From: Rufibacter sp. XAAS-G3-1
GTDB taxonomy: Bacteria; Bacteroidota; Bacteroidia; Cytophagales; Hymenobacteraceae
Length of the DNA: 64,000 nt
Assembly: GCF_013623775.1 (NCBI RefSeq)
Contig: NZ_JABFAM010000007.1
Coordinates: forward strand, 310,001 to 374,000
Reading direction: 5' to 3'
The notes below the pieces were generated by a model. It was given only the letters and a program-made list of their open reading frames with translations, was not told where the DNA came from and did not search any database. The stretch's first letter is position 1. Each line of letters opens with the position of its first letter. Of this stretch, positions 37,510 through 42,508 are shown piece by piece. The position numbers were made by a program, and so were the translations under genes.

Positions 37510-38859
37510 ATGCCAGACACTTCACCTCCCCAAACCAAACGTTCTGCCCCAGCGAAACCTACTTTTAGAGAGGCCTTCCTGTTCTGGCTGAAACTGGGCT
37601 TTATCAGTTTCGGCGGGCCGGCGGGGCAGATTGCCATCATGCACGCTTATCTGGTGGAGCAGAAACGCTGGGTATCAGACACCCGGTTTCTGCACGCGCT
37701 CAATTACTGCATGCTGTTGCCCGGGCCAGAGGCGCAGCAGTTGGCCACCTACCTGGGTTGGCTCATGCACGGGGTGCGCGGCGGACTAGTAGCGGGCATT
37801 TTCTTTGTGCTGCCCTCGGTATTCATTCTGCTGGGCTTGAGCACCGCGTACGTGAGCTACGGAACCATACCGTGGGTAGCGGCGCTGTTTTATGGCTTGA
37901 AACCGGCGGTGGTGGCCATTGTGGGGCTGGCTTTGTTCAAGATTGCGGGAAAGTCGCTCAAGCGTTGGGTGCATTACGTGCTGGCGCTGCTCAGTTTCGG
38001 GGCCATTTTCTTCCTGCAAGTACCTTTTCCGCTGATCATCTTGAGCGCGATTATGTTGGCGGTGATTTTGCGAAAAGTAGCCCCAAATCTGTTCCAGGAA
38101 AAAGAGACAAACCAAAAGCAAGCCGAGGATGAGGAAACCTATTTCCTGCACGCCGGCAGCGAGGTGGTGGGCAACGGTTTTAGCTGGGGCAAAAGTCTGC
38201 TCCGGCTGGGCATTACGGTGGTGCTCTGGGCCGTACCAGTGGGGCTGTTTTACTACCTGACCCAGGAGTTTCCTTTCTGGGACCACCTCATCACGTTCTT
38301 CACCAAAGCCGCCCTCGTCACATTTGGCGGCGCCTATGCCGTGCTTCCGTACGTGGCCCAGGTAGCGGTGGAGAAGTTTGGGTGGCTCTCGCGTTTTGAA
38401 ATGATAGACGGCTTGGCCCTGGGCGAAACCACGCCCGGCCCGCTCATCATGGTGCTGACCTTTGTGGGATTCATGGCGGGCTTCAACCATTACGGCGGCT
38501 CGCTGGCCATGGGTGCGCTGGGTTTGTTCACCACCACCTTCTACACCTTTCTGCCTTGCTTTTTCTTCATTTTGGCCGGAGCCCCCATCATTGAACGCAC
38601 CCGCGGGAACGCCGCTGTAAAATCAATTCTTGGCGTGGTGACCGCCACCGTGGTAGGCGTGGTGCTGAACCTGACCGTCTACTTCGGCACCGCCGTCCTT
38701 TTCCCCCAGGGGATCAACCTGCGGGCCTTAGATTACTTCGCCCTTCTCTGGATGAACATTTCCTTTCTGGCCATGTACCGCTTTAAGGTAGGCATGGTGC
38801 TCTGGATTAGCATTAGTGCTCTTGCTGGCCTGCTGCATTATCTCCTGTTTTCCGCCTGA
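37510..38859 (+). CDS. chrA: Chromate transporter, long-chain ChrA family
   Basis: An inner-membrane transporter of the CHR superfamily that exports chromate. The protein has 449 residues and two homologous halves, each starting with the family motif: LGFISFGGPAGQIAIMHAYLV near 30-50 and AALVTFGGAYAVLPYVAQVAV near 267-287. Each is followed by a proline-glycine motif (LLPGPEAQQL and ETTPGPLIMVL). About ten to twelve hydrophobic helices are visible. A short Lys/Gln/Glu-rich linker near 195-215 joins the halves. No chrB regulator is adjacent. A degraded GTTTT-type hairpin overlaps the stop codon. Confidence 0.9.
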   Translation: MPDTSPPQTKRSAPAKPTFREAFLFWLKLGFISFGGPAGQIAIMHAYLVEQKRWVSDTRFLHALNYCMLLPGPEAQQLATYLGWLMHGVRGGLVAGIFFVLPSVFILLGLSTAYVSYGTIPWVAALFYGLKPAVVAIVGLALFKIAGKSLKRWVHYVLALLSFGAIFFLQVPFPLIILSAIMLAVILRKVAPNLFQEKETNQKQAEDEETYFLHAGSEVVGNGFSWGKSLLRLGITVVLWAVPVGLFYYLTQEFPFWDHLITFFTKAALVTFGGAYAVLPYVAQVAVEKFGWLSRFEMIDGLALGETTPGPLIMVLTFVGFMAGFNHYGGSLAMGALGLFTTTFYTFLPCFFFILAGAPIIERTRGNAAVKSILGVVTATVVGVVLNLTVYFGTAVLFPQGINLRALDYFALLWMNISFLAMYRFKVGMVLWISISALAGLLHYLLFSA

Positions 38860-39498
38860 TTTTCAGAAAAGAAGACTAAACTGGCTATCTGTTTTAAAAT
38901 TTATTTGCCTGATCTTTAGAAGGTTGAGGAGTGTATATTAAAATTTCCTAATCTTTTGTTTGCATGTATCGTAGGAAACTACTCTATTTGTCTACTACAT
39001 CTATAGAGATTAAGAGTATCTAAGTTGCTTCAGAGGTTTAAGGCACAACAAAACAGGTGAAGCCTGGCCTTTTCTCTTCTTCTGGTGTGGAACTAGGAAC
39101 CAAGGGCGTGTGGCTGAGTAGCGAAGCAAAGACCGGCAAAGTCTTTTACAGCGGTTCCATTCCGCCCATGACCGCAAACCGCCTGCACCCAAAGTGCTCC
39201 GCGGCAGTGGGGAAGAAACCTACCGCGAAGCGTTTCAGGGCTGTTTTCAGAAAACCAGCCCTGAAACGGTAGGGAGGAGTAGGGTGGGCAAGAGACGGCA
39301 AGCCATCTGCAGGTTTGGACGATCCGTCTCTGCCGCCTTACTGAAAACCAAACTCTAAAACACCAATTGGAAAACTACCAAAGACCTACTACCCGCAATT
39401 GCCCTACGGTTTAACCCGCCAAAACCAGAACAATGATATGATGGCATTACCCGTGCAAAGCCAACCGCCAACCTAATCACCACTAACTTTTTACCACT
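38860..39498. other. Gene-free stretch upstream of the leader ORF and TonB receptor
   Basis: The left part (38880-39050) is AT-rich. A GTTTT-type hairpin, CGTTTCAGGGCTGTTTT and its near-complement, lies at 39231-39268, flanked by CCTACCG (39219) and CGGTAGG. No riboswitch core and no convincing ORF were seen. The receptor promoter should lie in the last 200 bases, but no TAnnTTTG box stands out. Confidence 0.5.
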
Positions 39499-39582
39499 AT
39501 GAAAACCGATGTCTTCTCAAAGAGAACCCACAAACGAATGCAGGGCCACTTCTCTGGCTTTGGCTGTTGTTGTTGCCGCTAA
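39499..39582 (+). CDS. Short leader ORF ending Cys-Cys-Cys-Cys-Arg-stop (candidate cysteine attenuator peptide)
   Basis: A 27-codon ORF with an ATG at 39499: a basic first half (MKTDVFSKRTHKRMQG), then HFSGFG, then four cysteine codons (TGT TGT TGT TGC), an arginine codon and TAA. It ends 49 bases before the start codon of the TonB-dependent receptor gene on the same strand. A run of identical codons just before a stop is the pattern of amino-acid attenuators, in which scarce charged tRNA stalls the ribosome and alters expression of the gene behind it. That role is inference: no terminator hairpin can be drawn with confidence between the leader and the receptor. The ORF could also be chance. 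Confidence 0.5.
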   Translation: MKTDVFSKRTHKRMQGHFSGFGCCCCR

Positions 39583-39631
39583 TCGCCTTCAACCCGTTTT
39601 TCCCTTCTTTATTTTTACAAGACATCATTCC

Positions 39632-42508
39632 ATGAAACCAAAATATTTACTTCTCCTTCATTTCCTTTTTCTTCCTCTGGCAGTCCTGCGCGCGCAGGAA
39701 ACCAATCTGGTGGAAATCAGCGGCCGGGTAACCGACCAAGCCAGCAAAGAACCCTTGCCCGGGGTGAGTGTGTACGTGCGCGGCACCGTGACCGGCACCG
39801 CCACCAGCCTCACCGGTGATTTCACCCTTAAAACCCGCTTGAAGTTTCCGTTTACGCTGGTGGTTTCTTTGGTGGGATTTCAGCCGCAGGAGTTTGCCAT
39901 CACCGAGCCCGGTTCCCGGCTGGACATTGCCTTGGTCACCCAAACCCTGCTGGGGAAAGAAGTGGTGGTGACCGCCTCCCGCGTAGAGGAAAGCATCTTG
40001 AAATCGCCGGTGGCCATTGAGAAACTGGACATCAGGGCCATCAAGGAAACGCCCGCCCCCAGCTTTTATGATGCCCTGGAGAACGTGAAAGGCGTGCAGA
40101 TGACCACCAGTAGCCTCACGTTTAAGGTGCCCAATACGCGTGGCTTCAACATTCCCAATAACTTCCGGTTCATGCAGTTGGTGGATGGCGTAGACATGCA
40201 GGCGGCCACTTTGGGCGTTCCGCTGGGCAATGCCATCGGGCCCACCGAACTGGACATTGAAAGCGTGGAGATTACCCCGGGCGCGGCTTCGGCGCTGTAC
40301 GGCATGAACGCCATCAACGGCATGGCCAACCTCATCACCAAAAGTCCTTTCCTGTACCAGGGATTGAGCGTGTACCAGAAAACCGGCGTGAACCACGTAG
40401 ACGGCCTTGACGCCGAGCCCAGCATCTTGTCTGAGTTTGCCGTACGGTACGCTAAAGTGTTAAAGGACAAGTTCGCTTTCAAGATCAACGCCAGCTACAT
40501 GAACGGCACCGACTGGCGCTCCAACACCACCACTGACCAGAACCCCAACCACCTGAATACCGCCAACCCATCTTTTCCGGAACTGGCCGGAGCCAACAAT
40601 CCCGCCTATGATGCCTGGAACAAGTACGGCGACGAGAACAACAATGCCGTGACCATCAGTGGCGTGCCCTACGGTGGCAAGAACCAGACCTTTCTGGTGC
40701 GTAGAACCGGATATTGGGAGAAAGGCATTGTGAGCCCCAGGGTAGACAACCTGAAGGTTGATGCCGCCCTGCATTACCGCCTTGGTGATAACGCCGAACT
40801 TTCTTACGGTTACCGCATTGGCAAGATGGATGGCGTGTTCCAGCGTGGCAACAAGATTCAGTTAGACAACGTGGTGGTGCAGAACCACCGCTTAGAACTG
40901 CGGGGAGCCAATTACTTCCTGCGGTCTTACCTGTCCATTGAGAATACCGGCGACTCGTACAACGTGAAGCCCATGGTAGACAACCTGGACATCACCAGCG
41001 GCGGCGCTAACAGCGAGTGGGGCGCTAAATTCAAGACCGTTCTGCAAACCCAACTGAGCGCCGGAACAGATCTGGCCACTGCCATGCAATTGGCCCGGCA
41101 AGCCGCCGATGTCGGTAGGGTAGAGCCGGGAACCCCGGCATTCAATGCCTTGAAGAACACCATCAGGGGCATCAACAACTGGGATCATGGCAAGGTGATT
41201 CCAGGGGCCCCGGCCACCGGCGGCGCTTTGCTCACCCAGAAAAGCCGCCTTTACCACACAGATGCCCAATGGGATTTCGCGGATCGGATCAAGTTTGCCA
41301 ACGTGCTGGTGGGCGCCGATGCCCGGGTGTATGAGGTCATCCCAGACGGGAACAACTTCGTGGATTTCACCCGGCCCATTGAACAGCGCACGCAGCCCGG
41401 CGGAGACAACGTGTACTACAAGAAATTCGGGGCGTTCGCGCAGGTGACTAAGACGTTCCTGGCCGATAAATTAAAGGTGTTCGGCTCCCTGCGGGTAGAT
41501 TACAACCCCGAGTTTGACCCAAAAATCAATCCGAGGATTGCGGCCGTGTACACGCTGTCTGAGTCGCACAACTTCCGGGTATCGTACCAGAACGGGTTCC
41601 GTTTTCCGGCCCTGTTTGAGGCGGTTTCTTACGTGAACAACGGAAACGTGCGCCGGGTAGGGGGCTTGCCGTTCATCAACGAAGGCTTGGGTTACCTAGA
41701 TAATTCCTACACGCTGGCCTCGGTGAACGATTTCAACGCCGCCGTGAACAAAGACGTGACCGCCGGTTTAACCACCAACGAAGCCGCCCTGAAAAACCGC
41801 GAGGTGTTGCAGGTGACCAGCTTATCGGCCACCCGGCCGGAGCAGATCAACTCTTTTGAGGTGGGCTACAAGAGCGTGTTGTTTGACAATAAACTGGTGC
41901 TGGACATTGACGCTTACACCAACGTGTACGACGGCTTTTTAGGGCAGGTGGAAGTAGCGGTGCCGAAAAGCAATACCGTGCAGGTGGGCACCGACGAAGC
42001 CGTGATTGCCATGCTGGCCGCTAACCGCACCGGGCAGCAGACCCGCTACCGCGTGTACACCAATGCCAAAAACAAGTACAACAACTACGGCTCTTCGCTG
42101 GGACTTACCTACAACTTCTACCAGAAATTCACCCTGTCTGGGAACGTGAACTACAATGCCATCAAAACCAATGAGGAGAAAGACATCTTCGTGACGGCCT
42201 TCAACACGCCCAACTGGATCACCAACGTGTCCATTGGGAACCGCGAAGTTCTGAAGAACCTGGGCTTTAACGTGGTGTGGCGCTGGCAGGATTCTTTTCT
42301 GTGGGAAAGCCCGCTGGCCAACGGAACCGTGCCAAGCTACAGCACCGTAGATGCCCAAGTCTCGCTTAGGGTGCCGGAAAGCAAAATCACCATCAAAACG
42401 GGGGGCACCAACCTCTTCAACCAACGCTACATCCAATATGCCGCCGGGCCCACCATTGGCGGACTGTACTACGTGGCGGTAACCTTAGACGGGCTGTTGG
42501 CAAAGTAA
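39632..42508 (+). CDS. TonB-dependent receptor with N-terminal carboxypeptidase-regulatory-like domain
   Basis: A 958-residue outer-membrane receptor. The signal peptide (MKPKYLLLLHFLFLPLAVLRAQ) is followed by the regulatory-like domain (ISGRVTDQASKEPLPGVSVYV, about 28-110), a plug with VVVTASRVEESILKSPVAIEKLD and MQLVDGVDM, and a barrel that closes with NLFNQRYIQYAAG and ends on a short hydrophobic tail. Unlike the 6013 receptor it has no SusD partner. The start at 39632 is chosen because the longer frame from 39509 overlaps the leader ORF and places the signal peptide inside the protein. Cargo is unknown. If the leader senses cysteine, a sulfur compound is a reasonable guess. Confidence 0.93.
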   Translation: MKPKYLLLLHFLFLPLAVLRAQETNLVEISGRVTDQASKEPLPGVSVYVRGTVTGTATSLTGDFTLKTRLKFPFTLVVSLVGFQPQEFAITEPGSRLDIALVTQTLLGKEVVVTASRVEESILKSPVAIEKLDIRAIKETPAPSFYDALENVKGVQMTTSSLTFKVPNTRGFNIPNNFRFMQLVDGVDMQAATLGVPLGNAIGPTELDIESVEITPGAASALYGMNAINGMANLITKSPFLYQGLSVYQKTGVNHVDGLDAEPSILSEFAVRYAKVLKDKFAFKINASYMNGTDWRSNTTTDQNPNHLNTANPSFPELAGANNPAYDAWNKYGDENNNAVTISGVPYGGKNQTFLVRRTGYWEKGIVSPRVDNLKVDAALHYRLGDNAELSYGYRIGKMDGVFQRGNKIQLDNVVVQNHRLELRGANYFLRSYLSIENTGDSYNVKPMVDNLDITSGGANSEWGAKFKTVLQTQLSAGTDLATAMQLARQAADVGRVEPGTPAFNALKNTIRGINNWDHGKVIPGAPATGGALLTQKSRLYHTDAQWDFADRIKFANVLVGADARVYEVIPDGNNFVDFTRPIEQRTQPGGDNVYYKKFGAFAQVTKTFLADKLKVFGSLRVDYNPEFDPKINPRIAAVYTLSESHNFRVSYQNGFRFPALFEAVSYVNNGNVRRVGGLPFINEGLGYLDNSYTLASVNDFNAAVNKDVTAGLTTNEAALKNREVLQVTSLSATRPEQINSFEVGYKSVLFDNKLVLDIDAYTNVYDGFLGQVEVAVPKSNTVQVGTDEAVIAMLAANRTGQQTRYRVYTNAKNKYNNYGSSLGLTYNFYQKFTLSGNVNYNAIKTNEEKDIFVTAFNTPNWITNVSIGNREVLKNLGFNVVWRWQDSFLWESPLANGTVPSYSTVDAQVSLRVPESKITIKTGGTNLFNQRYIQYAAGPTIGGLYYVAVTLDGLLAK

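Follow-up and report, generated by a model that had tools for sequence, protein, structure and literature searches.

A conserved ORF ending in cysteine codons as a probable cysteine-sensing leader of a TonB-dependent receptor gene in Rufibacter

A short open reading frame (ORF) that closes on four consecutive cysteine codons lies just upstream of a TonB-dependent receptor gene in Rufibacter sp. XAAS-G3-1, and comparison of related loci indicates that it is probably a cysteine-sensing leader peptide carried on the receptor transcript. The window analyzed here is the whole 64,000-nucleotide stretch of contig NZ_JABFAM010000007.1 (positions 310,001 to 374,000), and all coordinates below refer to it unless a locus is named. 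The elements discussed in the text are, in order of position:

37510–38859, + strand: upstream neighbor gene of the chromate-transporter family (ChrA; Pfam PF02417), outside the leader
38955–38990, + strand: promoter-like site, with TTTG at 38955–38958 and 38959–38962 and TCTATTTG at 38983–38990 (by eye)
38987–39007, + strand: operator-like motif TTTGTCTACTACATCTATAGA, a putative Rrf2-type site (motif scans)
39104–39176, + strand: tRNA-Cys-like element with anticodon GCA, no U33, and G73 (ARAGORN; Rfam tRNA, 35.1 bits)
39232–39267, + strand: inverted repeat GTTTCAGGGCTG..CAGCCCTGAAAC, between the tRNA-like element and the leader (by eye)
39499–39582, + strand: leader ORF, MKTDVFSKRTHKRMQGHFSGFGCCCCR followed by a stop (translation), kept in 9/9 genus orthologues
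39508–39515, + strand: GATGTCTT, within the leader ORF, where it would form the 5' side of a predicted long-range helix (fold, partly supported)
39565–39576, + strand: four consecutive Cys codons, where ribosomes would presumably stall (translation; genus alignment)
39583–39631, + strand: 49-nt spacer between leader and receptor (base counts), with no terminator-like site inside
39619–39626, + strand: AAGACATC, predicted partner of GATGTCTT on the 3' side of that helix, 5 nt ahead of the receptor ATG (fold)
39632–42508, + strand: TonB-dependent receptor with CarboxypepD_reg-like, plug and barrel domains (Pfam, NCBIfam)

Translation and coordinates confirm the original prediction of a 27-codon ORF ending in Cys-Cys-Cys-Cys-Arg 49 bases before the receptor: the Cys codons (TGT TGT TGT TGC) are followed by CGC and TAA, and the 49-nt spacer leads to the receptor ATG at 39632. 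Another ATG, at 39509, also opens the receptor frame and runs over the leader in another frame, so that an annotation could begin there and hide the leader, but the signal-peptide-like start MKPKYLLLLHFLFLPLAVLRAQ (by eye) argues for 39632.

The comparison of regions upstream of orthologous receptors, suggested as a check on that prediction, showed both the ORF and its Cys run to be kept throughout the genus. Among 16 genus genomes, a true receptor orthologue was found in nine (69–100% identity; the other seven gave weak matches only), and in all nine the leader lies directly upstream of the receptor, with a start of the form M[KR]..V and then the Cys run. This run counts four residues in six orthologues and three in the remaining three, with TGT and TGC mixed, and is followed by Arg and a stop in 8/9, the last one continuing as CCCCSRLARRYPLS. 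Beyond the genus, we searched named Bacteroidota genomes and used the best 80 of 449 confirmed receptor loci (64–92% identity in the best segment), a Cys-run ORF being defined as ATG-started, at most 50 codons long, with CCC within its last 8 residues and located at most 300 nt upstream of the receptor. Such an ORF occurs in 20 of these 80 best loci, a count not made of independent events since the loci are related, and in none on the reverse strand; 200 rounds of dinucleotide shuffling of the 80 loci gave a mean of 0.02 and a maximum of 1. The same upstream count for other residues across these 80 loci found none enriched. The 20 loci come from Rufibacter (4), Sabulibacter, Adhaeribacter (2), Pontibacter, Pedobacter (2), Segetibacter, Flavihumibacter, Hufsiella, Mucilaginibacter, Foetidibacter, Hymenobacter (3) and 2 further assemblies. 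No ORF satisfied the rule in the other 60 of the 80 best loci, one of which (L129, Rufibacter) has a Cys-run ORF with a longer tail. Across whole loci of this set, 29 Cys-run ORFs are found on the receptor strand vs. 4 on the opposite strand, and nine of those on the receptor strand do not adjoin the receptor. A run of codons for a single amino acid kept in frame, as looked for in an attenuator, is thus observed both in the genus and among the 20 wider loci.

The receptor leader has at least two counterparts in its own genome. The pattern of four Cys codons, Arg or Ser, and a stop matches at only two places in the 5.3 Mb genome, and both are leaders, the second one (MEKQ...ADICCCCR, then stop) lying 128 nt before the O-acetylhomoserine sulfhydrylase gene metY. 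The metY leader is present with the exact pattern in 13/16 genus genomes, and in the own genome (L001, reverse strand, contig C36) it follows a SAM riboswitch, i.e., metY is preceded by two sulfur signals in series. A third leader (MVYSSHIKRMRFCCCSSCCCCC, then stop; L300 1444–1512, contig C58) sits 76 nt before cysH, the phosphoadenylyl-sulfate reductase gene, after which comes a CysD-like frame (CysD recognized by eye); it is kept in 14/14 genus genomes with the gene, 2/16 having no match to the gene. The cysH and metY leaders thus precede genes of cysteine metabolism, as expected of attenuator targets, and the Cys codons are the common element of the three leader families. If they do sense cysteine, the three leaders in one genome would make up a ribosome-run regulon open to testing. 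Members of all three families in the genus also share an internal CGAATG encoding Arg-Met, seen in 14/14 cysH leaders and, by eye, in some receptor and most metY leaders.

Other Cys-run ORFs were found more widely. Among the nine receptor-strand ORFs that do not adjoin the receptor, those at L145, L151 and L154 precede similar dioxygenase genes (Pfam PhyH for L145 only), L154 having a second Cys-run ORF before an ORF without Pfam match. In a phylum scan, the pattern of four Cys, Arg or Ser, and a stop gave matches in 98/296 genomes; inspection of 29 new loci showed a leader-like ORF ahead of a PhyH-like ORF at L261, in a different genome of the class (by eye), an ATG-started ORF at six others and none at 22. 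Two of these six, L244 and L265, were judged unlikely leaders by eye, each touching or overlapping a long frame. Scans of the own genome for three Cys codons directly before a stop, or one codon away from it, returned 36 and 37 places, respectively, of which 30 each were inspected. A family scan with matches in at least 179/200 genomes, whose pattern admitted TGG, was given no weight as evidence. At L322 (own genome, contig C36), a Cys-rich ORF, MISCCSSFCCVFCCCM and then a stop, lies 198 nt ahead of a 205-residue ORF.

The receptor itself gave 13 matches in NCBIfam, none at the curated cut-off, and is most similar to Rufibacter receptors. Among proteins of solved structure, the colicin I receptor is nearest to it in sequence, over 144 residues. 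Its neighbors in other genera often are sulfate-assimilation genes: across the best 80 of 449 loci, we counted a TauE and siroheme-synthase type fusion in 48, sulfite reductase type in 26, flavoprotein reductase type in 25, tetrapyrrole methylase in 14, a CysD-like cluster in 12 (by eye), a CysN-like GTPase cluster in 11, Rrf2 regulators in 11 and PAPS reductase type in 6, with clusters named from Pfam matches of one representative each except for the CysD-like cluster. Sulfate-assimilation or Rrf2 neighbor clusters were found at 0/6 Rufibacter/Sabulibacter loci, where the receptor follows a ChrA-type gene (ChrA-type proteins occur in 9 of the 80 best loci, 6 of these being Rufibacter/Sabulibacter). 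The proposed coupling of this importer to sulfur status, as part of a sulfur regulon, is thus supported in part: the metY and cysH sister leaders, the neighbors in other genera and the operator-like motif described below speak for it, whereas the Rufibacter receptor loci, without sulfate-assimilation neighbors, speak against it.

About 500 nt upstream of the leader ORF (by eye), the TTTG and TCTATTTG elements form a pair which we take to be a candidate Bacteroidota-type promoter. The operator-like motif next to it is possibly an Rrf2-type site, to which such a regulator would bind. Apart from this copy, the genome holds one other without mismatch outside the N positions, upstream of a 1-Cys peroxiredoxin gene and ~0.8 kb from an Rrf2 gene; allowing up to 3 mismatches, the motif occurs at 21 places in the genome vs. 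15 in the control. At 14/17 matching positions or better and within 800 nt upstream of the receptor, it was found in 32 of the 80 best loci (of 449), including all 6 from Rufibacter/Sabulibacter, vs. 0.2 in mononucleotide shuffles of the 80 loci. The genus cysH leaders contained no good match to this motif (10 to 13 of 17). With promoter-like site and putative operator both upstream of the leader (38955–39007), a transcription start after 39582, which would leave the leader off the transcript, is argued against. Intergenic palindromes of the type TTTCAGGGCTGTTTT..AAAACAGCCCTGAAA were noted by eye at 39232–39267 of the window and at other genus loci.

The way in which such a leader could act on the receptor was explored through RNA structure. 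Between 38860 and 39800, three terminator-like matches were obtained vs. 1.2 in shuffles, the two on the + strand being located at 39054–39066 and at 39541–39562, the second of which falls within the ORF immediately ahead of the Cys run. A classical trp-style terminator switch was rejected for this spacer, which holds no terminator-like site, and this transcriptional subtype is not claimed. The fold of 39480–39660 is overall not unusual (z -1.15); in it, GATGTCTT of the leader pairs with AAGACATC, just ahead of the receptor ATG. Pairing between the leader 5' half and the receptor start reached p < 0.05 in 7/9 genus sequences (mononucleotide shuffles; receptor starts of G027 and G060 a few bases off), but pairing of the whole leader with the receptor start did so in only 6/21 loci under dinucleotide shuffles, the window itself giving 0.083 (receptor starts of L126 and L192 a few bases off). 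Outside Rufibacter, strong leader-start pairing was seen in Adhaeribacter (L133) and Hymenobacter (L192 and L202). Covariation is not claimed for this helix, since the cross table is not diagonal and own pairs are not clearly above cross-species pairs, and we regard the leader-start helix as supported in part.

In the sister families, leader-to-start pairing was found at p < 0.05 in only 1/13 metY leaders. The Cys run there pairs with a downstream stretch (p ≤ 0.05 in 8/13 metY and p < 0.05 in 8/14 cysH leaders, both against mononucleotide shuffles), a pairing rejected as a general rule in receptor leaders, where the Cys run and spacer pair at p < 0.05 in 3/21. For L129, both this last test and the 21-locus leader-start test used a leader start placed 30 nt too far downstream, and in a separate analysis its bounds were rough. 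An outer stem in metY is a suggestion at most, as the alignment misplaces divergent rows. Because Cys-run pairing is not general in receptor leaders and leader-start pairing is not seen in metY, no common output structure is claimed. Shuffles kept base composition only in the operator-motif, Cys-run pairing, genus leader-start, metY and cysH tests, and dinucleotides in the upstream ORF enrichment and 21-locus leader-start tests.

We infer regulation by the leader, ribosome stalling and a direction of response along the following lines. Transcription would probably begin around 38995, possibly controlled by an Rrf2-type regulator. With ample Cys-tRNA, ribosomes would pass the Cys run, complete the leader and depart, after which the leader 5' half could pair with the stretch before the receptor start and the receptor would be poorly translated. 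With Cys-tRNA in short supply, the first ribosome would pause at the four Cys codons and followers would queue over the leader 5' half, such that the helix would not form, the receptor start would stay open and the receptor would be made. Queueing has to be assumed here, because one paused ribosome alone would leave the 5' strand uncovered. Translation is our tentative first choice for the output of the leader, the step controlled then being translation rather than Rho-dependent termination.

The main rival output keeps the same cysteine sensor and makes the spacer a Rho loading site, which a paused ribosome would shield and a departed one would expose, Rho then ending the transcript. We consider this somewhat unlikely, and as the sensor is common to both, its likelihood overlaps with that of the cysteine-sensing leader as such. 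The spacer does contain 37 pyrimidines out of 49 nt with only 3 G, besides being free of terminator-like sites, but at this length it is short for a rut site, and spacers of several other genera are A-rich (A at least 0.39 in 7/14 non-Rufibacter rows). An earlier study had raised Rho for actinobacterial cys leaders without terminators (PMC1262725).

Two further explanations dispense with the reading of Cys-tRNA altogether. The nascent Cys-rich peptide might directly bind a metal or a thiol oxidant and arrest the ribosome, in the manner of copper nascent-chain sensors, as four adjacent Cys beside a basic stretch could bind metal. Copper sensing by upstream ORFs and nascent proteins is known (PMC9973294). 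One such case comes from Bordetella. We find this quite improbable nonetheless, given that leaders whose N-terminal parts are unrelated carry Cys runs ahead of genes for sulfate reduction and homocysteine/cysteine synthesis, and that sulfur genes surround the receptor in many other genera. That the ORF is a functionless chance frame, or part of a longer receptor gene read out of frame, appears next to negligible: the longer receptor ORF from 39509 does overlap it in another frame and the region 39000–39700 is overlapped by 15 ORFs of at least 20 residues, but the frame, start and Cys run are kept in every genus orthologue, the Arg-stop in nearly all of them, and upstream ORFs of this kind exceed the shuffled expectation.

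Between the promoter-like site and the leader, in the presumed 5' untranslated region, sits the tRNA-Cys-like element, which resembles the other tRNA-Cys of the genome. ARAGORN found a copy upstream of the leader in 9/9 genus orthologues (GCA in eight, GAA in one), with 94% mean column identity over the nine while the flanks align poorly (by eye). A U33 is expected in a functional elongator tRNA. As for U73, it is a CysRS determinant according to PMC9976931. By eye, the nine copies have U33 in 0/9, U73 in 0/9 and G73 in 9/9, i.e., the window element carries the GCA anticodon of an elongator tRNA-Cys but lacks its U33 and U73. Its Rfam score is lower than that of any of the 37 genomic tRNAs listed (45.2 to 75.9 bits), and in four genus loci searched at the Rfam gathering score, copies were reported for L056 (49.1) and L060 (43.4), those of L053 and L058 not being reported. 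A search of 38860–39640 for a known riboswitch or T-box gave eight Rfam matches, of which only the tRNA family was at gathering score. Covariation within the element was rejected, as 98.9% of cells are paired but 100/500 shuffles reach every measure, which leaves conservation only.

Across the best 80 of 449 receptor loci, a tRNA-Cys-type copy lies within ~5 kb of the receptor in 17, always on the receptor strand (L126–L131, L133–L136, L140, L148, L150, L181, L190, L198 and L201). ARAGORN labels 16 of these copies Cys and one Phe, and one separate locus has a tRNA-Leu. Six of the 17 are in Rufibacter/Sabulibacter leaders, and the other 11 lie downstream (nine) or upstream (two) of the receptor. 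At position 1:72 of these 11 (by eye), A stands opposite G in eight, two of which have an extra base; one has C opposite A, and two are paired; the 17 other tRNA-Cys copies compared have G1-C72. In two genomes without a receptor-adjoining copy, four extra tRNA-Cys-type copies were inspected. That at L236 comes before an ATP-grasp-like ORF and a luciferase-like monooxygenase, that at L238 comes after ORFs of cysteine-desulfurase-like and redoxin-like type (by eye), and those at L237 and L239 have no evident sulfur neighbors.

It is tempting to speculate on a two-part cysteine sensor, in which a tRNA-Cys mimic lying in cis ahead of the ORF would report on CysRS, on tRNA processing or on charging, and the supply of Cys-tRNA would be read by the ribosome at the codon run. 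More widely, Bacteroidota sulfur operons would carry non-elongator tRNA-Cys variants dedicated to cysteine control, many of them lacking an intact 1:72 pair. Without U33 and U73, such a mimic would not be able to decode or to become charged in the ordinary manner. As a whole, we hold this scheme to be unlikely, and the recurring pairing of receptor and variant tRNA-Cys raises the question of what such tRNAs do.

If the cysteine-sensing leader is correct, Bacteroidota would coordinate sulfur genes, including an outer-membrane importer, via ribosomes sensing cysteine supply. In the searched literature, cysteine-supply sensing by leader ribosomes is known for Actinobacteria only: cys leaders with Cys-codon runs and no clear terminator were predicted there in 2005 (PMC1262725), and mycobacterial polycysteine ORFs reportedly act as attenuators (Canestrari 2020, as cited in PMC9031893 and PMC9094748). 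For Bacteroidota, a flavobacterial study gives clues for leader-peptide attenuation of amino-acid operons (PMC9723704), and a Bacteroides study reports short ORFs in long leaders (PMC7366714). Neither polycysteine leaders nor the tRNA-Cys arrangement were found for this phylum in the literature searched, most subscription papers lying outside its coverage.

Among known systems, the classical trp and his attenuators also rely on a leader ORF containing a run of codons for the amino acid under control, whereas here no terminator-like site separates leader and receptor. The translational attenuation of ermC type has in common that a helix would release the next gene's start once a ribosome pauses in the leader, but the signal here would be amino-acid shortage rather than a drug, and the pairing would use the leader 5' half, which is partly supported. 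Regarding the tRNA-like element, the selC* tRNA-Cys are similarly extra tRNA-Cys-type genes with changed features and (PMC7609411) they are reported from other phyla and keep U73 and an 8/4 arm structure, in contrast with the ordinary arm lengths and the lack of U33 and U73 here. Actinobacterial polycysteine leaders (PMC1262725, PMC9031893, PMC9094748) likewise consist of a short ORF with a Cys run near its stop, ahead of cysteine or sulfate genes, with no obvious terminator and several per genome; these are found before biosynthesis operons, the mycobacterial ones on leaderless transcripts, whereas the leader described here belongs to a Bacteroidota genome, has a TonB receptor as one target, lies probably ~500 nt into its transcript and follows a tRNA-Cys-like element.
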